Shown here piece after piece: positions 24,019-35,470 of a DNA stretch of 64,000 nucleotides (its first letter is position 1; each line of letters starts with the position of its first letter). The notes under the pieces were generated by a model, which was not told the DNA's origin, searched no databases, and was given only the letters and a program-made list of their open reading frames with translations. Made by a program: the position numbers and the translations under genes. This stretch comes from Martinezella lusitana (GTDB lineage Bacteria > Pseudomonadota > Alphaproteobacteria > Rhizobiales > Rhizobiaceae), in the NCBI RefSeq assembly GCF_014207095.1, contig NZ_JACHBG010000018.1, positions 1 through 64,000 of the forward strand. Reading direction: 5' to 3'.

Positions 24019-27000
24019 CTACTTGTTGCGGGCGAGCAGCTCCTTGACGACCTGATCGGTCACCCGTCCATCGGACGGCAGGCCGACGGACTTCTGGAAG
24101 CTCTTCAGCGCCGCCACAGTCTTGTCGCCCATGCTGCCATCTGGCGCACCGGCATCGAAACCGTTCTTGTTGAGGATGGCCTGGATGTTGCGGATGGCCT
24201 TCTTCATGTCGATGGACGCGGTGTTCACGCCCTTGCCCGTGGTCCACTCGTCGGGAACATCCGTGCCGTTGGCCTTGGGATCAGCCTGCTGCGCCTTCCA
24301 GAGATCGACTTTGGCGCGAGCGCCTTCGAGATCGGCCGGCTTCATGGCGTTGGCGACTTCGTCACGCTTTTGCGCGGCGTCCTTGTCGCCGCTCTTTGCG
24401 GCGATTGCGAACCACTTGTAGGATTCCTGCAGATCCTGCTTCACGCCGTTACCGCGAGCATAAAGGATCGCAAGGTTGAACTGGCTGTCGGACACGCCGA
24501 GATTGGCAGCGCGCGTAAACCAGTTCGCAGCCGAGTCGTAGTCCTGCTGTCCCGCCGTCCCAGATGCGTAGAGGACGGCAAGGTTGTGCATGGCGCTGGC
24601 ATTGCCCTGATTGGCGGCCTGCTCATAATAGCCCTTGGCCTTGAGGAGGTCACGGTCGATGCCGTTGCCTTTCTCGTACATGCTCGCGAGCCGGTATTGT
24701 GCCGGAGCATAGCCCTTCGCGGCCGAAAGCTGATACCAGTTCGCCGCCTGCTTCAGATCCGTCGCGACATTGCGGCCGTCGGTATAGCGGGCGCCGATCT
24801 CGAAGAGCGCGACAGGGTCGCTCGATTTCGCGGCGGCGACAAGCGATGGCGGCTGAATGCCATCAGGCACCTGGATCTCTGCGGCCGCCGGAGCCGCGAC
24901 GGCGTTGTCGGTGGAAGCGTCAGCGCTCGCTTGCTGCCCAGGTGCTGTGCTGCCGCCAGAATTGTCGGCGGTGGCCGAGGGGACTTCGGCCGAAGGTGTT
25001 GCCGCAGGTTGGTCGCTGGTCGGTGCGAGTGCCGGGTTGGCAGATGCCGTCGCGGGCTGGACATTTGCCGTGTCCGCTGACGTCGCAACCGGCGCTGCGG
25101 CCTGGTTTGCAGCCGGCTGCTGATCATTGACGACCGGGGCTGCATTGGTGGCAACGCGGTTGGTCACCGCGCTATCTGCCGGCGCAACCATGGTCGAAAT
25201 TTCGGCGGGCGCGGGTGCCTTCTGGCCACGCGTCAACGTGTTGACGAGCGGGAAGGCCATGATCGCCAGCAGGGCCGCGCCAATGGCGAGCAGGATCGGG
25301 CGGCGGAAGCGCGAGAACGCTCCGCCCTTCTTCGCATCCTTCTTGCCGGCGGGTGCTGTCCGCTGGACTTGATCGACTTCGATCGCCGCGGCCTGTGCGG
25401 CACGGCGGGCTGCAGCGATATAGTCTGCACGCTCGTTTTCGGTCGGCTGACGGCCGCCGCGGGCGGTGTTCTGGCTGGCGCGTACGCGCTCCAGGATCTT
25501 CTTGATATCGGGCGCGCCGGAGCCGGGCTCCAGCAGCTCGTTTGCCTCTTCCGTCGGCATCATGTCGGCCGGGTCGATGGACGGTGCCTGTTCGATGACA
25601 GGGCGATCCGGCAGGAAGATCGGCTCGGCCTTCTCCGGCGTGAAGAAACGCTTGCCGAGGCTGGCGAGAAGGCCTGCCTTCGAACCGCTTTTCTTGGCGG
25701 CGGCCTTGATCTCTGCCTTGGTATTGGCATCGATTGCCTGTGCGACGGCGGTCTCGGACGCTGCGGCCGTTTCTGCGGGCGCAACCGTGCGGATGATCGG
25801 GCCGGCCTTCTGCTGTGCGGCCATCGGCGGCTTGATTGCCGGCGCATCCTCGTCGGCGAAGACGTCGCTTTCGAAGGCCGCTGCCGGCATGGTGGGTGCC
25901 GGTCGGCGATGTTCCATGTGGTCGAGCCGATCGGCGATCTGCAGCAGCGTGTCGTGCAACGCTTCGAAGGTGCGGTGCGTGCGCTCGTCGCTGGCGCGGC
26001 TAAGATCTTCGAGATGACGAAGGTCTTCGGCAAGAGCCGTCAGTGCGGCCATATCGCCATGCTGCGCGCTGCCGGCCATTCCGCCTTCGCGAGAATAGGC
26101 TTCAACGACGGTTTCCGCCGCATGGCGTGCGGCTTCGATGATGTATTCGTCGTTGGTCGCCATATAATCTTCGATGGCGCTCATCCGCCGATCGAAATCG
26201 ACAGGGAAATGCTCGCCCGCCGCTGCCCGGGGCTCGCTGGTGAGAAGGGTGGACAGGTGGGCGATCTGCTCTTCGAGGCTGCGCAGGGCCTGCGTGTCCG
26301 TCGGCGGTGCGGCTGTGCTGGCTTCGAGCCGGGCCGCGATGTCGGAGAGGCGGCCTTCGAGCCGGCGGACCGCACCGTCATCGATGTTTGCTGCCGGAGC
26401 CGGCGGATGGAAATCGATTTCGTCGATGCGGCGAGCGAGATAGTCCAGCCGGTCCGCAAGCGCATTGCCGACCGAGCCGTGTTCCAGCGCATCGATTTTG
26501 TGCGAGATGTCGGCGAGATAGGTGACGAGCTCCGGCTGCGGCGCCGCCTTCTGCGAGCGTTCCATCAAGTGCGAAAGCTGATCCAGACGCTCCTCGAGGC
26601 GAGCGACGGCCTTGGCGCTGCCCAGTTCGTCGATGCGCATGGCAAGCGCTTCGAGGCGACCGGAGAGATCGTCCGCGGGCTGGCGTCGTGCCGCATCGCG
26701 GCTCATGACATCGATCTGGTCGGCAAGGCCGCTCAGCTGGCCTTCGAGCCGCTGCATTGCCTGATCCTGCGGTTGCATCATCGAGCCGAGGCTCTCCATG
26801 GCAGTCGCGATCGTCAGCAGCTTGTTTTCCAGCGCATGCACGGCGGGGCTGTCGTTCATGCCGCCGAGGTGCTGCTTGATGTCGTCGAGGCGGTAGGCAA
26901 GCGATACGAGCTCGTCCTGCAGGCCGGTCGTGTCGATCGCTTTTACCTGGCGTTCGACGTGGTGCAGGGATTCCTCGCGGGCAAGGCCGTCCATCAGCGA

Positions 27001-27687
27001 ACGCAGCTCGTCGAACTCGGCCTTGAGACCCGCCGTCTCCGGCTGGCCGGTGAGCTGGTTGATGCTGTCGGCAAGCCGCGCCATGTCCTCGCGAACATCG
27101 GCTGCGAAATGTTTGTCGTTGCTGTTCTCGCGGATATCGCGAATTTCAGCGCGCAGGGCGTTTACTTCGCGGGTCACGCTGTCGGCGATGTCGCGCTTCA
27201 GGTCCTGGCGGAGATTGACGAGCGCCTGGGCGATGTCGACGGAGCTTTCGGCGGCCGGCCGCTGCTGCTGGCGTGGGCTATAGGCATCGAGCGGACGCCG
27301 GGCCGGCTGCGGCTCGGCCTGCGGGATTTCTTCGCGGCGCGCAAGCAGCCGCTCGCGGTTCGCCTCGAGCGCGCGCTGGCGCTGGCGGATTTCTGCAAGC
27401 GGATCTGGGCGGACCTCATGCTGCTCCTGGCGTTCGGAACGCAGCGGACGTTCATAGGGCCGGCTTGCGGGGTATTCGCGCTCGGGGCGCGGCGGCATGC
27501 GCTCCGGGGCCGCTGTCCGCTCGGGAACGGCGCCGTAGCCGGCTGCAACGCGCTGGCGCGTATCGCGCGAGGCTGCGGTGCCCATCAATCCCTCGATGCG
27601 CGCCTCCAGCCCCTCGATCGTGCGGCTCAGAGCATCCAGCGATGTCCAGTCGCCCGTGCTGGTAGGATTTGATCGCGATCCGCTCAT
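24019..27687 (-). CDS. podJ: PodJ-like polar organelle development protein (coiled coil, Sel1 repeats, peptidoglycan-binding domain)
   Basis: A 1222-residue bitopic protein. The cytoplasmic part (1 to about 795) is charged, with many long coiled-coil segments (for example MSRDAARRQ, LSHLMERSQK). A membrane helix lies at about 797-818 (PILLAIGAALLAIMAFPLV). The periplasmic part has an Ala/Pro-rich linker, about four Sel1/TPR-like repeats (about 949-1100) and a C-terminal peptidoglycan-binding domain (about 1146-1221). This order is that of PodJ, which organises the cell pole in Caulobacter and rhizobia. The ATG at 27687 is preferred over the open frame reaching 28074, which runs into AT-rich promoter sequence. 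Confidence 0.82.
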   Translation of the reverse strand: MSGSRSNPTSTGDWTSLDALSRTIEGLEARIEGLMGTAASRDTRQRVAAGYGAVPERTAAPERMPPRPEREYPASRPYERPLRSERQEQHEVRPDPLAEIRQRQRALEANRERLLARREEIPQAEPQPARRPLDAYSPRQQQRPAAESSVDIAQALVNLRQDLKRDIADSVTREVNALRAEIRDIRENSNDKHFAADVREDMARLADSINQLTGQPETAGLKAEFDELRSLMDGLAREESLHHVERQVKAIDTTGLQDELVSLAYRLDDIKQHLGGMNDSPAVHALENKLLTIATAMESLGSMMQPQDQAMQRLEGQLSGLADQIDVMSRDAARRQPADDLSGRLEALAMRIDELGSAKAVARLEERLDQLSHLMERSQKAAPQPELVTYLADISHKIDALEHGSVGNALADRLDYLARRIDEIDFHPPAPAANIDDGAVRRLEGRLSDIAARLEASTAAPPTDTQALRSLEEQIAHLSTLLTSEPRAAAGEHFPVDFDRRMSAIEDYMATNDEYIIEAARHAAETVVEAYSREGGMAGSAQHGDMAALTALAEDLRHLEDLSRASDERTHRTFEALHDTLLQIADRLDHMEHRRPAPTMPAAAFESDVFADEDAPAIKPPMAAQQKAGPIIRTVAPAETAAASETAVAQAIDANTKAEIKAAAKKSGSKAGLLASLGKRFFTPEKAEPIFLPDRPVIEQAPSIDPADMMPTEEANELLEPGSGAPDIKKILERVRASQNTARGGRQPTENERADYIAAARRAAQAAAIEVDQVQRTAPAGKKDAKKGGAFSRFRRPILLAIGAALLAIMAFPLVNTLTRGQKAPAPAEISTMVAPADSAVTNRVATNAAPVVNDQQPAANQAAAPVATSADTANVQPATASANPALAPTSDQPAATPSAEVPSATADNSGGSTAPGQQASADASTDNAVAAPAAAEIQVPDGIQPPSLVAAAKSSDPVALFEIGARYTDGRNVATDLKQAANWYQLSAAKGYAPAQYRLASMYEKGNGIDRDLLKAKGYYEQAANQGNASAMHNLAVLYASGTAGQQDYDSAANWFTRAANLGVSDSQFNLAILYARGNGVKQDLQESYKWFAIAAKSGDKDAAQKRDEVANAMKPADLEGARAKVDLWKAQQADPKANGTDVPDEWTTGKGVNTASIDMKKAIRNIQAILNKNGFDAGAPDGSMGDKTVAALKSFQKSVGLPSDGRVTDQVVKELLARNK

Positions 27688-28078
27688 ATCTTTTGCTCGC
27701 CTCGAACTATGACCACCCAGGTCACCGTGTTGACGGAAGAAAGACGCTGCGCCATTGCCGCAATGCCCGGATCCCGCCGTTCGGAAAGGGATAAATCTAT
27801 TGGCTTTCCTCAAACCGAGCCGCAAAGACACCGCGTCATTCAATGATAGATTGAAGAAGCGCGAAGCACTGCTGCTCAACTCGTACAATTTACGAAACGT
27901 GGTAAACAACTCGTTAAGTTTGGCGGAAATCTTTAACCTTTTATTTCGGTTCTGCTGTCGGATGCCTCGATATTCTTCCGATATTAGCTCGATAGAGACC
28001 ACGGGAACGCGGATCTTCGTTTGCGCCGATCCAAATTCCCATCTGTAGATCCCTAGAAAAAATCGGCGCGACAAAAAC
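27688..28078. other. Intergenic region upstream of podJ
   Basis: An AT-richer stretch of about 390 bases between podJ and the beta-oxidation operon. It should carry the podJ promoter. Two TTAA motifs (27914 and 27933) recall CtrA half-sites, but their spacing is not the usual one. Apart from this I see no gene, RNA or palindrome. Confidence 0.4.
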
Positions 28079-28110
28079 TTGACGTTTACGCAAACGTCAA
28101 TATTTTATAT
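28079..28110 (+). promoter_or_regulatory. Palindromic operator overlapping promoter of beta-oxidation operon
   Basis: TTGACGTTT (28079-28087) and AAACGTCAA (28092-28100) form a perfect inverted repeat around ACGC. Its left end supplies a -35-like TTGACG, and TATTTTAT begins directly after it at 28101 as a -10 candidate with a 16-base spacer. The operator therefore fills the promoter spacer. The sequence resembles operators of LiuR-type MerR regulators of acyl-CoA and branched-chain catabolism in proteobacteria. The protein that binds is inference. Confidence 0.72.
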
Positions 28111-28167
28111 GGGTAATCGCAGTGGCCGGAATCTGAGGTCCGGCGGCGAATTGGAGGAATTCGAGAG

Positions 28168-29964
28168 ATGCCAGTCTACAAGGCCCCGGTGAATGATACG
28201 CTCTTCGTCCTGAACGATGTGCTTGGGTTGGAGCGCTACAACAATCTTCCGGGTTATGCCGATGCGACGCCTGACATGATCGAGGCGATCGTCGGCGAGG
28301 CGGCAAAGCTGTCGGAAGAGGTGCTTTTCCCGCTGAATTACTCGGGTGATCAGGAAGGCTGCGTACGCCACGATGACGGCACGGTTTCGACGCCGAAGGG
28401 CTTCAAGGAGGCCTATCGCGCCTATCGCGAAGGTGGTTGGCTCGGCCTCGCCGTGCCGGAAGAATTCGGCGGGCAGGGACTTCCTTATGTGCTGCATTGC
28501 GCAGTCGGCGAATATACCTCCGCCGCCAACATGTCGCTGATGATGTATCCGGGTCTGACACAGGGCGCGATCGCAGCCATCCTCGTGCATGGCTCCGACG
28601 CGCAGAAGCAGACCTATTTGCCGAAGATGGTCGAGGGCACGTGGTCCGGCACGATGAACCTCACAGAACCGCATTGCGGCACCGATCTCGGCCTCCTGCG
28701 TACCAAGGCAGTTCCGCAAGCCGACGGCAGCTACAAGATTTCCGGCCAGAAGATCTTCATTTCCGCCGGCGAACACGACATGACGGACAATATCGTCCAT
28801 CTCGTCCTTGCCCGCATCGAAGGCGCTCCTGAGGGCACCAAGGGCATCTCGCTGTTCATCGTGCCGAAGTTCCTCGTCAGGCAAGACGGTTCGCTCGGCG
28901 CGCGCAACCCCGTTTCCTGCGGCGCGATCGAGCACAAGATGGGCATTCACGGTAACGCCACCTGCGTCATGAATTATGACGAGGCGACGGGCTTTCTGAT
29001 CGGTGCCGAGAACAAGGGCCTCAACGCCATGTTCGTCATGATGAACGAGGCGCGTCTGGCCGTCGGCTTGCAGGGTGTGTCGATCGCCGAAGTCGCCTAT
29101 CAGAATGCCGCCAATTATGCCCGCGAGCGCATTCAGGGCCGCTCGCTTTCCGGCCCGAAGGCGCCGGACAAGAAGGCGGACCCGATCATCGTTCACCCCG
29201 ACATCCGCCGCACACTGATGACCATCCGCGCCTTCAACGAGGCCGGCCGCGCCTTCCTGCTGTGGACGGCGCTGAAATCCGATATCGCCCATCGCTCCCC
29301 GGACGAGAAGGACCGTCAGGCAGCCGACGATGTCCTTGGCCTCGCGACCCCGATCCTCAAGGGCGTCATGACCGACAAGGGCTTTGAGCACGCCGTCATG
29401 GCGCAGCAGGTCTTCGGCGGCCATGGCTATATCGAAGAACACGGCATGAGCCAGTATGTCCGCGATGCCCGCATCGCCATGATCTATGAAGGCGCCAACG
29501 GTATCCAGGCGCTCGATCTCGTCGGCCGCAAGCTGGCGCTGAATGGCGGCCGCGCCGTCATGGCCCTGTTCAAGGAAATCGGCGATTTCTGCGAGGAGAA
29601 CCGCAACGACGAGCAGATGGGCTTCTTCACCAAACACCTGAAGAAGGGCTTGAACGATGTGCAGGCCTCAACCATGTGGTTCATGCAGAACGCCATGGCC
29701 AAGCCCGACAATGCCGGTGCCGGCTCGACCGATTACATGCACCTCTTCGGCCTCGTCGTCCTCGGCTATATGTGGGCGAAGATGGCGAAGGCGGCACAGG
29801 ATGGCCTTGCACGCGGCGATGCTGCGCGCGAGGATTATCTGAAGAACAAGCTTGTCACGGCGCGGTTCTATATGGAGCGCATCATGCCGGAAACGGCATT
29901 GCGCAAGGCTCGCATAGAAACCGGCGCCGACACCATGATGGAACTGGCGGCGGAAGCCTTTTGA
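28168..29964 (+). CDS. Acyl-CoA dehydrogenase (long, C-terminal-extended type)
   Basis: A 598-residue flavoprotein oxidising acyl-CoA to 2-enoyl-CoA. Core motifs include [36 protein letters not shown] and [14 protein letters not shown]. The likely catalytic base is Glu441 in [10 protein letters not shown]. Its length and the C-terminal domain place it with the roughly 600-residue group that includes broad-chain and DMSP-pathway enzymes. Co-transcription with thiolase and FadB-type genes points to fatty-acid beta-oxidation. It starts at ATG after GGAGG and is under the palindromic operator at 28079. Confidence 0.93.
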
Positions 29965-29999
29965 TCAAAGCGGCGCTTGCCGCTGCAGGGAGATGAGAC

Positions 30000-31208
30000 A
30001 TGACCGAGGTTTTCATTTACGACCACGTGCGCACGCCGCGCGGACGGGGCAAGAAGGATGGATCGCTGCACGAAGTGCCGTCCGTTCGCCTTGCCGCCAA
30101 GACGCTGGAGGCGATCCGCGACCGCAACGGCCTCGACACCGCAACGGTTGACGATATCATCATGGGCTGCGTCGATCCGGTCATGGAAGCCGGCGCCGTC
30201 ATCCCGAGGGGTGCCGCCTTCGAAGCCGGCTATTCCACCAAGGCCCCCGGCATGCAGATCTCGCGCTTCTGCGCCTCGGGCCTCGATGCCGTGAATTTCG
30301 GTGCCGCCAAGATCGCGCAGGGTGCTGACGACATCGTCATCGCCGGCGGTGTCGAAAGCATGTCGCGCGTCGGCTTGGGCATGTCCGGCGGCGCCTGGTT
30401 CATGGATCCCTCCGTCAACTTCCCGGCCTATTTCATGCCGCAGGGCGTATCGGCCGATCTCATCGCCACCAAATACGGCTTCTCGCGCGATGACGTCGAT
30501 GCCTATGCCGTCGAGAGCCAGAAGCGCGCCGCCAATGCCTGGGAAAAGGGCTATTTCAAGAATTCCGTCATCCCGGTGAAGGATATCAACGGCCTGACCA
30601 TTCTCGATCGCGACGAACACATGCGTCCAGGCACCGATATGCAGGCGCTCGCCTCGCTCAATCCGTCCTTCCAGCTGCCGGGCGAAATGGGCGGCTTCGA
30701 AGCGGTCGGCATTCAGGCGCATCCGGAAGTCGAACGCATCAATTACGTCCATCATGCCGGCAATTCCTCCGGCATCGTCGATGGCGCCGCCGCCGTGCTG
30801 CTCGGCTCCAAGGCGGGCGGTGAGAGTATGGGGTTGAAGCCGCGCGGCCGCATCAAGGCTTTCGCTAATATCGGCTCCGACCCGGCGCTGATGCTGACCG
30901 GCCCGGTTGACGTCACCGAAAAGCTCCTGAAGCGCAGCGGTTTGACGCTTGCCGACATCGATCTGTTCGAGCTCAACGAAGCCTTCGCCGCTGTCGTGCT
31001 GCGCTACATGCAGGCCTTCGATATCGAGCATGACAAGATCAACGTCAACGGTGGCGCCATCGCCATGGGCCATCCGCTCGGTGCGACCGGCGCGATGATC
31101 CTCGGCACCGTGCTGGACGAGCTGGAGCGCCGCGACCTCAATACCGCGCTGGTCACGCTCTGCATCGGCGCCGGCATGGGTACGGCCACGATCATCGAAC
31201 GCGTCTGA
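30000..31208 (+). CDS. fadA: Acetyl-CoA C-acyltransferase (thiolase)
   Basis: A 402-residue thiolase cleaving 3-ketoacyl-CoA to acetyl-CoA and a shortened acyl-CoA. The nucleophile is Cys91 (SRFCASGLD), the catalytic His lies in [11 protein letters not shown], and the second Cys is Cys388 (LCIGAGMG). It is gene two of the operon, 35 bases after the dehydrogenase and 12 before the bifunctional enzyme. That context supports the FadA role over biosynthetic acetoacetyl-CoA thiolase. Confidence 0.94.
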
Positions 31209-31220
31209 GGAGGGAAAGCA

Positions 31221-33431
31221 ATGGCTTACACAAATTTCACCGTTGAGACCGACGCAGACGGCATCGCACTCGTCACCTGGGATATGCCCGGCAAGTCCAT
31301 GAACGTCTTCACCGCCGAGGTGATGGATGAGCTGAACGCCATCCTCGACGCCACCGTTGCCGATGCAGCCGTCAAGGGCGTGGTCTTCACCTCGGGCAAG
31401 TCCTCCTTCTCCGGCGGCGCTGATCTGTCGATGATCAAGTCGATGTTCTCGCTCTATCAGGATGAGAAGGCGAAAGACCCGGCTGCTACCGCGCAGAAGC
31501 TCTTCAATCTCGTCGGGCGCATGACGGGCCTCTTCCGCAAGCTCGAAACCTGCGGCAAGCCGTGGGTCTCTGCCATCAACGGCACCTGCATGGGCGGCGC
31601 TTTCGAGCTGTCGCTGGCCTGCCATGGCCGCGTTGCGTCGAACGCCAAGAGCGTCAAGATCGCGCTGCCAGAGGTCAAGGTCGGTCTCTTCCCGGGTGCC
31701 GGTGGCACGCAGCGCGTCTCGCGCCTGGCGGACGCTCAGTCGGCCTTGCAGATGATGACGACGGGCCAGTCGCTGACGGCGGCACGCGCCAAGGCGATGA
31801 ACCTCGTGCATCAGGTGGTCGAGCCGGATCAGTTGATCCCGGCCGCCAAACAGATGATCAAGGACGGTCTGAAGCCGGTAGCACCTTGGGATGAAAAGGG
31901 TTTCAAGGCGCCGGGCGGCGGTATCTGGACGCCTGCCGCAGCCCAGCTCTGGCCGGCAGCCCCCGCCATCCTGCGCCGCGAAACATCGGGCAATTATCCG
32001 GCAGCACTCGCCATCCTAAAATGCGTCTATGAAGGCCTGCAGGTTCCGTTCGATACCGGCCTGAAGATCGAGCAGCGCTATTTCACCCATGTGCTGCAGA
32101 CCACCGAAGCCTATTCGATGATCCGCTCGCTGTTCATCTCCATGCAGGAACTTGGCAAGGGCGCTCGCCGTCCGGCAGGCCAGCCGAAGACCGAGTTGAA
32201 GAACGTCGGTGTCGTCGGCGCCGGTTTCATGGGCGCGTCTATCGCTTATGTTACGGCAGCCGCCGGCATTCCGGTCACGCTGATCGATCGCGATATCGAA
32301 GCTGCCACCAAGGGCAAGGGTGTTGGCGAAGGCCTGGTCAAGGATTCGATTAGTAAGGGAAGAATGACGCAAGACGAGGGTGCCGCGTTGCTTTCGCGCA
32401 TCACGCCTTCGGCTGATTATTCCGATCTGAAGGATGCCGATCTCGTCATCGAGGCGGTATTCGAGGATCGCGAGGTCAAGAAAGCCGTCATCGAGGCCGT
32501 CGAAGCCGTGTTGCCGCCAACTGCCGTCTTCGCTTCCAACACCTCGACGCTGCCGATCACCGGTCTTGCGAAGAATTCCAAACGTCCAGCGGACTTCATC
32601 GGCGTCCACTTCTTCTCGCCGGTCGAGAAGATGATGCTGACCGAAGTCATCCTCGGCAAGGAAACGGGTGACCGTGCCATTGCCGTCGCGCTGGATTACG
32701 TCGCCGCCATCAAGAAGACGCCGATCGTCGTCAACGACACCCGCGGCTTCTTCGTCAATCGCTGCGTCTTCCGCTATATCCACGAAGCCTATGACATGCT
32801 GATCGAGGGCGTGCCCGCAGCCATGATCGAGAATGCCGCCAAGATGGCCGGCATGCCGGTGGGGCCGCTGGCGCTCAACGACGAAGTCGCCATCGATCTC
32901 TCCTACAAGATCCTGAAGGCGACGGTCGCGGATCTCGGCGAGAAGGCCGTCGATCCGCGTCACATGCAGCTGGTCACCGGTCTGGTGGAGCGCGAAGGGC
33001 GCCTGGGCCGGAAGAACGCCAAGGGCTTCTATGAGTATCCGCCGAAGCCGGCCAAGAAGTCGCTCTGGCCGGGCCTTAGGGAACTCTATCCGCAGAAGAA
33101 GGCCGATGAGGTCGATGTCGGCGTGTTGAAGCAGCGCTTCCTCGTCACCATCGCGCTCGAGGCGGCGCGCACCATCGAAGAGGGTATCGTCACCGATCCG
33201 CGCGAGGCCGATGTCGGCTCGATCCTCGGCTTCGGCTTCGCCCCCTATACCGGCGGCGCGCTGTCCTACATCGACGGCATGGGCGTGAAGACCTTCGTGG
33301 ACCTCTGCGAAAAGCTGGCCGCCGCTTACGGCCCGCACTTCCAGCCGACAGCGCTGCTGAAGGACATGGCCGCGAAGGGCGAGACCTTCTACGGGCGTTT
33401 CGATCCCTATCGCGTCGAGAAGGCGGCCTGA
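31221..33431 (+). CDS. fadB: 3-hydroxyacyl-CoA dehydrogenase/enoyl-CoA hydratase bifunctional enzyme
   Basis: A 736-residue fusion catalysing the hydration and oxidation steps of beta-oxidation. The N-terminal crotonase domain shows [13 protein letters not shown] and [19 protein letters not shown]. The NAD-binding domain begins at [16 protein letters not shown], followed by [17 protein letters not shown] and the C-terminal dehydrogenase domains. An AGGAGGG site precedes the ATG. With the preceding two genes it gives a complete cycle except acyl-CoA ligation. It could also be called FadJ, since the two are not separable here. Confidence 0.95.
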
Positions 33432-33559: not shown

Positions 33560-34771
33560 TTACGCTACGCTCAGCTGCTTGTCCTTGCCGGCCCTTAGGG
33601 CAACGACACCCCAGCCGACGAGCAGAATGATGGCCGCAGCATAAATATCGGCCGCTTCGGCATATCCAAGCGCCTTCGACAGGAAACCTGCGACGATGGC
33701 GGGCACGCTGAAGGCGAGATAGCTCTCGATGTAGAAAGCAGAGAGAAGGCCGGCGCGTTCGTCGGGCTTGGCCAATGGCATGATGCTGCGTACCGTGCCT
33801 AGGAAGGTTGCCCCGAAGCCTGAACCAGCGATCACAGTTCCCACGGCAAGGATCGATACCTCGGCTGTATGCACGCCGGCAATCACGGCCAAGACGCCGA
33901 GCGTCATGCTCGATACGCCGAACCACATGGCTGTGGTGGCAGATCTTTTGCGCAATAGAAAAACGGCGCTCGCCCCGCTGATCGTCAAGGCGGCGACCAC
34001 GCAGCCGCCGATCAAGGGTGCAGTGCTGCCGGTCGTCGCGCTGACCAGTGAGGGGACCAGCGACAGATAGAAGCCGCCGAGCGCCCAGACGGCGATATTG
34101 ATAGGCGTCAGCGCCAGCAGTGTGCGTCGCACTTGCGGCGGTACCGCCACTTCCGGCTTCAGCGATGCGAGCAGCCCGGCCCGGCGCTTCGTTGTCTCCG
34201 GCATGAGCCAGAGAAGCGCCGCCTGAAGGAGGAGGAGGGCGAGCGTCACGGCATAGACGAGCAGCATCGGCGCGGGTGCGAACTGAACGAGCAGGCTCGT
34301 GCCGAGCGCGCCGACCGCCATGCCGGCAAGCGGCGCGAGACTATTGGTAATCGAGCCCCTGATCGGATCGAGATCGACAAGGGCAGCCCCAATGGAACTG
34401 GCCGCAGCGCCTGTTGCCAGCCCCTGCACGATGCGGGCCGCAATCAGCCAATTCGGTCCTGTGGCCATTAAAAATAACGCCATTGCCACCATATTGAGGA
34501 GGATCGATGCGAAGATGACAGGGCGCCGGCCGAGATGATCGGAAATCGAACCGACGATCAGCAACGCGACGAGGAGGGCGAAGGCATAGACGGCGAAGAT
34601 GACTGTGATCAGCACCGGCGAGAAGGCGAAGGTCTGCTGGTAGAGACGGTAGAGCGGCGTCGGTGCGGATGAGGCGGCAAAGAACAGCGCGCTGGTCGCG
34701 GCATAATAGAAGGGCGCAAGACGTCTGGCCGGTGAAATCGGCGCGCTAGCAGTGGAAACGGGCTCAGTCAT
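33560..34771 (-). CDS. Major facilitator superfamily transporter
   Basis: A 403-residue membrane protein with about 12 hydrophobic segments. MFS motif A appears as GSISDHLGRRPVIF, and RIVQGLATGAA matches the fourth-helix drug-efflux motif. It resembles drug/metabolite exporters of the DHA1 type. It is divergent from a TetR regulator with repeated operator half-sites between them, the classical layout of a repressor-controlled efflux pump. Confidence 0.92.
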   Translation of the reverse strand: MTEPVSTASAPISPARRLAPFYYAATSALFFAASSAPTPLYRLYQQTFAFSPVLITVIFAVYAFALLVALLIVGSISDHLGRRPVIFASILLNMVAMALFLMATGPNWLIAARIVQGLATGAAASSIGAALVDLDPIRGSITNSLAPLAGMAVGALGTSLLVQFAPAPMLLVYAVTLALLLLQAALLWLMPETTKRRAGLLASLKPEVAVPPQVRRTLLALTPINIAVWALGGFYLSLVPSLVSATTGSTAPLIGGCVVAALTISGASAVFLLRKRSATTAMWFGVSSMTLGVLAVIAGVHTAEVSILAVGTVIAGSGFGATFLGTVRSIMPLAKPDERAGLLSAFYIESYLAFSVPAIVAGFLSKALGYAEAADIYAAAIILLVGWGVVALRAGKDKQLSVA

Positions 34772-34800
34772 CGACTATATCCTGACTTAAAGCTAAAAGA

Positions 34801-34855
34801 TTGCGTTAGGCGGATATAGGGTGCCTGACGCACAAAAGCAAATAATTTGCGTTAG
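34801..34855. promoter_or_regulatory. Repeated operator half-sites between TetR and MFS genes
   Basis: TGCGTTAGGC (34802-34811) is mirrored by GCCTGACGCA (34823-34832) with one mismatch, and TTGCGTTAG recurs at 34847-34855 in direct orientation. Three copies of the same half-site within 55 bases, in the gap of a divergent TetR/MFS pair, indicate repressor binding. Confidence 0.7.
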
Positions 34856-34909
34856 TTGGTGTCGAATTGTGCACCACTGCCCGCAAAAGCGAAAGATTGG
34901 CAAAGGCTT

Positions 34910-35470
34910 ATGAGCCACAGAGAGAATCCTCGTCCGGGTGGGCGCAGCGCCAGAGTACAGGCGGCGGTTCATCAATCCGTCCGCGACATACTTGCAACGA
35001 TGGATCGCACCGATGTGACAATCCCTTTGATCGCACAGCGCGCCAATGTCACGCCGTCAACCATCTACCGTCGCTGGGGCGATCTGCAGGAGCTTCTGGC
35101 CGATGTGGCCGCTGCGCGCTTGCGGCCGGAGAGCGAGCCCCCGAGGATCGGCAGTGCCCGCGAAGATCTGGAATCATGGATCGAGCAATATGCCGATGAG
35201 ATGGCATCAGGTGTCGGACGGCAGATGTTGCGCGACGTTCTTTCCTCGACCGACGGCACCAGTGTCGAAAAGTGCCGCTGTTACATGCAGCAACAACTTG
35301 CCGTTCTCATTGCGCGGGCGGAGAAATCAGGCGAGCGCTTTCCTGATCTGGAAGAGCTGATGGATCATGTCATCTCGCCGATCATATACCGCATCCTTTT
35401 CGATTGCCCCATCGGCGAGGATTATGTTCGCGAACTGATCGCGAAGGTGATGCAGAAATTCAAAGGGTAG
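34910..35470 (+). CDS. TetR/AcrR family transcriptional regulator
   Basis: A 186-residue repressor. The helix-turn-helix is VTIPLIAQRANVTPSTIYRRWGDLQELLADVA, matching TetR regulators. The remainder is the helical ligand-binding domain, including a C-terminal TetR_C-like part. The ATG at 34910 follows AAAGG. An in-frame extension to 34856 would run into the operator and is not used. It likely represses itself and the divergent MFS gene. Confidence 0.92.
   Translation: MSHRENPRPGGRSARVQAAVHQSVRDILATMDRTDVTIPLIAQRANVTPSTIYRRWGDLQELLADVAAARLRPESEPPRIGSAREDLESWIEQYADEMASGVGRQMLRDVLSSTDGTSVEKCRCYMQQQLAVLIARAEKSGERFPDLEELMDHVISPIIYRILFDCPIGEDYVRELIAKVMQKFKG

Follow-up and report, generated by a model that had tools for sequence, protein, structure and literature searches.

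A putative LiuR-type operator in a rhizobial beta-oxidation promoter and its candidate MerR-family repressor encoded elsewhere in the genome

Which protein controls a beta-oxidation operon that carries a perfect palindrome in its promoter and no regulator gene among its members? The operon lies on the forward strand of the 64-kb window (the whole stretch of DNA analysed) and comprises genes for a 598-aa acyl-CoA dehydrogenase (operon gene 1, 28168..29964; ORF list and domain searches), a 402-aa acetyl-CoA acyltransferase/thiolase (30000..31208; above the cut-off of NCBIfam NF006090) and a 736-aa FadJ/FadB-type multifunctional enzyme (31221..33431), whose best NCBIfam scores fall below the equivalog cut-offs. 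The first-pass annotation had called these three genes downstream of the palindrome and had remarked that the operon lacks a regulator; the gene calls hold, and the ORF list contains no regulator gene at 28168-33431. Gene 1 shares 96% identity with its counterparts in Rhizobium tropici SARCC-755 (L077) and Rhizobium sp. JAB6 (L123), which makes a Rhizobium close to these two the most likely source. A long divergent ORF on the reverse strand (24019..28074; ORF list) bounds the intergenic region on its upstream side; it has a Sel1-like/peptidoglycan-binding-like reading and an uncertain true start, and relatives of it adjoin the operon in several named loci. The palindrome, TTGACGTTT-N4-AAACGTCAA, occupies 28079-28100, and its 3' end lies 67 bases from the ATG of the acyl-CoA dehydrogenase gene. 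It is as perfect as had been claimed, both 9-base arms being without mismatch, and the full 22-base box, TTGACGTTTACGCAAACGTCAA, is the sole match in the window at up to three mismatches, with none in 100 dinucleotide shuffles. From its letters, the genome scan and its relatives, which include at least 120 named loci with exact arms, we identify this element (28079..28100, no strand assigned) as a putative palindromic operator, an ILV/LiuR-type box.

The palindrome and the promoter are closely interlocked. A consensus scan of 27900-28300 returned one promoter, TTGACG-16-TATTTT, with 9 of 12 matches (shuffles averaged 0.5). Its -35 element (TTGACG, 28079..28084, forward strand) consists of the first six bases of the left arm, the remainder of the palindrome forms the 16-base spacer, and the abutting -10-like element (TATTTT, 28101..28106, forward strand) begins at the very next base; a ribosome-binding site, GGAGGA, was read from the sequence at 28153..28158 on the same strand. 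The earlier description had placed the palindrome between the -35 and the -10. It does adjoin the -10 and fill the spacer, but the -35 lies inside it. Judged by eye, all 19 Rhizobiaceae promoters of the beta-oxidation operon that were compared have the -35 within the left arm, and in this set TATTTT, TATTAT or AGTTT(T/C) takes the -10 place.

Across the 7.2-Mb genome (68 contigs), the box was found at five places with at most three mismatches, two of them with both arms perfect, where an even-base model predicts about 0.02 matches and a reversed-pattern control gave none. Every one lies upstream either of a MerR gene or of acyl-CoA, ETF or nitronate monooxygenase (NMO) genes: the window operon (contig C18), an NMO-family gene (PF03060; C8:205957), a second acyl-CoA dehydrogenase gene with an enoyl-CoA hydratase gene behind it (C1:200337), etfBA with a 3-hydroxyacyl-CoA dehydrogenase gene (C22:42156), and the gene of a 129-aa MerR protein, where the site (C26:7577) stands 32 bases ahead of the first possible start. 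A sequence-only profile built from 24 sites, with 150 of 851 candidates scored in this genome, added two sites. C8:195069 precedes an AMP-binding (PF00501) gene that we read as fadD-like (4 mismatches, E 0.004); C1:431139 lies ahead of the gene for ETF-QO (PF21162; 5 mismatches, E 0.006). Both are weaker than the five, which we count against our best explanation. Combined, the box-bearing genes span activation, dehydrogenation, hydration, oxidation, thiolysis and electron transfer of beta-oxidation. The profile match C1:344431 (E 1.4, 6 mismatches) is a lead only, retained because better sites occur at orthologues elsewhere. Two other profile matches, C7:23632 (within an ABC ATPase gene) and C7:301588, were taken as chance (E 0.4-0.5).

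The MerR gene (C26:7631-8020, 129 aa) thus bears the box at its own promoter. Its product scores above the cut-offs of PF13411, PF00376 and PF09278 (MerR_1, MerR-DNA-bind), but for CueR, ZntR and MerR it falls far short of the NCBIfam cut-offs. It has no close paralogue in its own genome, the next matches reaching 29-33% identity and the three best of these falling outside its tree group. An orthologue is present in all 37 genus genomes, and the box stands at its promoter in 29/29 genus loci examined (at most three mismatches). In a tree of 138 of the 167 matches, the protein belongs to a 28-row LiuR clade (support 98/85; the rows include no experimentally named LiuR sequence), which is nested in a larger group including Burkholderiales MerR proteins. 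Omitted from this tree were 23 of the 29 genus copies, two copies of the protein itself, two duplicate loci, the second L301 match and the truncated L115; it has few columns and flagged long branches, among them L009, L076, L007, L008, L228, L122 and L216. The first-pass annotation had likened the palindrome to LiuR-type (MerR family) operators, had predicted a regulator elsewhere in the genome linking this operon to others and had asked for a genome scan, in which random scatter would have spoken against it. Such scatter was not seen; the five sites at related genes or the MerR gene, the two profile matches and the LiuR-clade membership of a box-bearing MerR gene all point the same way, and the interpretation is supported and largely right.

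The genomic context of this gene differs from that of its relatives. In the genus it stands alone, with no liu or fad gene of the reference set within about 1.5 kb on either side in 29/29 loci; the same flank check in genomes reached via named records found none in 28/28 loci (the L140 flank being shorter). In other families, by contrast, most clade members are the first gene of a merR-paaI-liuA operon. Among the 21 clade-mates fetched from 24 non-genus places (at least 47% identity, down to G086; G104, G171 and G179 left out), a PaaI-type thioesterase gene is next in 18 and liuA is nearby in 18, those without liuA being L289 (same family, alone), L292 (thioesterase present) and L300 (contig end). 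A box with at most five mismatches precedes the MerR gene in 10 of the 21; in the other 11, LiuR loci in other families, none was found at that threshold, and this again counts against our best explanation. The box is found at the LiuR gene in 14/14 loci of the narrow-sense Rhizobiaceae (G185-G198: Rhizobium, Shinella, Neorhizobium, Ciceribacter, Endobacterium, Mycoplana and two unnamed Rhizobiales), compared with 7/14 others. A third context was seen at L200 and L201 (G060 and G041, two other families), where a related MerR gene follows a long-chain acyl-CoA ligase-like gene and no box with up to six mismatches was found.

Both the box and its targets recur widely. Sites were found in 45 of 61 genomes (own included) and in 37/37 within the genus, where these 37 genomes gave 192 forward matches compared with 3 for the control (G036 one, G034 two). 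The scan of named genomes yielded at least 120 loci with exact arms, an even-base model expecting about 4 in the whole collection; those listed comprise 62 alpha-, 50 beta- and 3 gammaproteobacterial loci and 5 without a class. In 117 of the loci listed (exceptions: L018, L076 and L121), an acyl-CoA/ILV-pathway or MerR gene lies no more than 500 bases downstream of the site, which for the beta loci is a consistency count, since the labelling references were partly taken from those loci, while 50 operon and 8 NMO matches among the 62 alpha loci rest on references from our own genome. Exact arms precede genes for IcmF-like, LiuA, LiuB, PaaI-type thioesterase, MBL-fold, SDR, thiolase, EtfB and MerR proteins in Betaproteobacteria, a set that agrees with the ILV box of LiuR; LiuA, LiuB, IcmF, PaaI and AtoB are names read from sequences, with LiuA and LiuB of the present genome confirmed in Pfam. 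The profile was also run on six genomes (two of the genus, Shinella, Neorhizobium, Mesorhizobium and Nitratireductor; 150 candidates scored each) and placed a site before the operon, the second acyl-CoA dehydrogenase gene and the LiuR gene in 6/6, before the NMO gene in 4/6, and before etfB, the ETF-QO gene, the fadD-like gene and a gene for a 131-aa protein without Pfam match in 3/6 each. No site before liu genes emerged from this sample, and the profile sites at L402, L403, L404, L407 and L408 have no convincing target next to them. The same targets come back in Rhizobium, Shinella, Neorhizobium, Mesorhizobium and Nitratireductor.

Based on these comparisons, we propose, with a probability of roughly 0.85, that the box serves as operator for a dimeric repressor of the MerR family, namely the LiuR orthologue at C26:7631-8020, which would jointly hold down beta-oxidation until an acyl-CoA releases it. 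Put more broadly, a repressor encoded elsewhere, which would control most of the fatty-acid breakdown pathway, very probably docks at this box. The LiuR orthologue would bind the palindrome as a dimer and, because the box covers the -35 and the entire spacer, the bound dimer would block RNA polymerase. It would likewise occupy the boxes at its own gene and at the genes for the second acyl-CoA dehydrogenase and enoyl-CoA hydratase, etfBA, ETF-QO, the fadD-like protein and NMO. The box starts with TTGAC at the operon and at the LiuR, second dehydrogenase, etfB, fadD-like and ETF-QO genes; by eye, each of these boxes has a -10-like block immediately behind it or 1-2 bases on, weak for the second dehydrogenase and ETF-QO. 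At the NMO genes, where the box comes after a CTGCTAT-like block, the start point would lie beneath it, which suits occlusion by a repressor. Beta-oxidation would thereby be kept off until an acyl-CoA, probably the product of FadD or a derivative of it, frees the operator. In Sinorhizobium meliloti, smc02229-fadAB, which from gene order and names we read as the counterpart of the window operon, is described as rising in stationary phase, and fatty-acid genes as strongly up in the wild type relative to a mutant lacking fadD (PMC7232532). These observations make the FadD product or a derivative the likely signal. Fatty-acid breakdown is also tied there to stationary-phase survival (PMC7232532).

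The same regulator could instead act in the classical MerR manner, as an activator untwisting the promoter on binding its inducer. It has the MerR_1 and MerR-DNA-bind domains, and the operator lies within the promoter spacer, as for the metal-sensing activators CueR, ZntR and MerR, with which it shares the MerR helix-turn-helix. However, metal-resistance MerR sites are described as palindromes in a spacer of 19 or 20 bp (PMC1526738), whereas the window promoter has 16 bases, and at the NMO genes the box, downstream of a CTGCTAT-like block, would lie over the start point. A 16-base spacer with a box over the -35 and up to the -10 fits a repressor and not classical MerR activation, which we therefore regard as improbable. 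Still less probable is that another regulator, of TetR or GntR type or the TetR protein encoded at 34856-35470, binds the palindrome and that the MerR gene merely shares the site. A perfect palindrome would fit TetR dimers too, and this TetR gene is located about 1.4 kb beyond the operon, but it adjoins an MFS gene and has no box at up to three mismatches; moreover, the gene upstream is a MerR gene in 55 of 77 orthologous operons, and the association of the box with MerR genes extends to Burkholderiales. That the palindrome is an intrinsic terminator hairpin and no protein site at all was rejected as having almost no chance, even though a terminator scan flags it (9 pairs, then a T-rich stretch): the hairpin contains just 3 G-C pairs and sits between divergent gene starts, and its letters are conserved beyond what symmetry demands, with related genes downstream in 117 of the at least 120 exact-match loci listed.

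If the LiuR orthologue is the repressor, its regulon differs from the one its name implies. LiuR, of the MerR family, is listed as regulating branched-chain amino acid use in 103 genomes from 15 groups (PMC5343134) and is termed a repressor (PMC3223726); in Rhodospirillum rubrum, the merR/liuR, liu and ivd genes are described as carrying the ILV box (PMC7238569). The MerR protein studied here falls in the same clade, and the box is the same, its exact arms preceding liu-type, IcmF-like, thioesterase and MerR genes in Burkholderiales. In contrast to LiuR, the gene stands alone and the box is found at beta-oxidation genes. The genome's own liu operon (liuA at C1:323007) has a best box match of 8 mismatches within 19 kb. 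We found liuA in 23 of 25 genus genomes searched (13 close copies, 10 at 66-69% identity), and the 1.5 kb before it contained no box in any of the 23 (best 8-10 mismatches, control 8-11). Since the box is absent there, the regulon in the genus looks like one of fatty-acid oxidation, and the MerR protein would be LiuR by descent, not by regulon.

In other families, relatives of the window operon often have a second MerR gene of this family at their head. The survey of the order covered 150 genomes, 78 of them with an orthologue of operon gene 1. With the window's own operon set aside, 2 kb of upstream sequence was compared for the remaining 77 (two shortened by contig ends), and it contains such a MerR gene in 55/77. 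A box with at most five mismatches, a cut picked after viewing the table, occurs upstream in 43/77 (control 0/77, minimum 7). It is present in 37/55 operons with the upstream MerR gene compared with 6/22 without (Fisher p 0.002, in a test that ignores relatedness), and 16 operons have neither. No box at this cut was found in 34/77 orthologous operons, or in 18/55 with MerR upstream, and these gaps, like the 6/22 operons that have the box but no MerR gene upstream, count against our best explanation. Nearly all in-operon MerR proteins form a separate tree group (73 rows, support 82/92; L240 and L246 lie outside). Its junction with the LiuR group has support 92/72, and the few columns and long branches leave the order of these paralogues uncertain. 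Among named loci with both the site and the orthologue, MerR is upstream in 12/17 Phyllobacteriaceae, 3/14 Rhizobiaceae (Rhizobium 0/5) and 0/2 Brucellaceae with enough sequence. A copy search in 29 genomes, at a cut-off of 1e-15 that a strongly diverged copy could escape, gave one MerR copy in 17 (the 14 genomes G185-G198, two Phyllobacterium and Brucella gallinifaecis), two in 11 (Mesorhizobium, Nitratireductor, Aquamicrobium and Ochrobactrum sp. CGA5) and none in Sneathiella. The second copy lies away from the operon in Aquamicrobium, M. xinjiangense and Ochrobactrum and adjoins it in Mesorhizobium and Nitratireductor, so that the box there has two candidate readers, a further point against our best explanation.

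At the window operon, the in-operon paralogue is missing and the box is present. We put forward, at even odds, a takeover: ancestrally in the order, the in-operon MerR paralogue would have read the operon box and LiuR a box of the same type at the leucine operon; the Rhizobium lineage would then have lost the paralogue and kept the box, and LiuR would have quit the leucine operon and become the sole global repressor of fatty-acid oxidation, with Mesorhizobium and Nitratireductor keeping both. Such a loss of one of two paralogous regulators that share one DNA word would offer a possible example of network rewiring.

Repression of beta-oxidation genes is also the role of FadR (GntR), PsrA and FadP (TetR), which belong to protein families other than MerR; FadR is described as absent outside Gammaproteobacteria and FadP as unique to Betaproteobacteria (PMC5343134). 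Our analysis proposes a concrete regulator gene and target list for rhizobial fatty-acid breakdown, and a literature search of titles and abstract openings found no MerR regulator of rhizobial beta-oxidation. Kazakov et al. 2009 reportedly assigned control of fatty-acid degradation genes to LiuR orthologues, as a prediction for 22 alphaproteobacterial species, which is the same conclusion as ours and leaves its novelty modest; paralogue loss with takeover is the newer reading.

Several minor observations concern genes near the box. Divergent MFS transporter and TetR genes at 33560-35470, next to the operon, probably form a separate efflux unit. A second perfect box lies just ahead of the start of the NMO gene (L001:525-1484 and 8 named alpha loci). 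The gene for the 131-aa protein without Pfam match (MNEVIDQIA...; L324:1539-1934 on the genome's own C1, also L384, L395, L398 and L209) has a box 17-22 bases ahead of its start in several genomes. In Polaromonas, exact boxes at L018:388 and L121:3347 lie near a polyphosphate kinase 2-like gene, an odd partner for an ILV box. Finally, at L045, L059 and L071 (Rhodoferax, Curvibacter), an exact box lies ahead of an SDR dehydrogenase gene whose divergent neighbour resembles PhaR, the polyhydroxybutyrate regulator.
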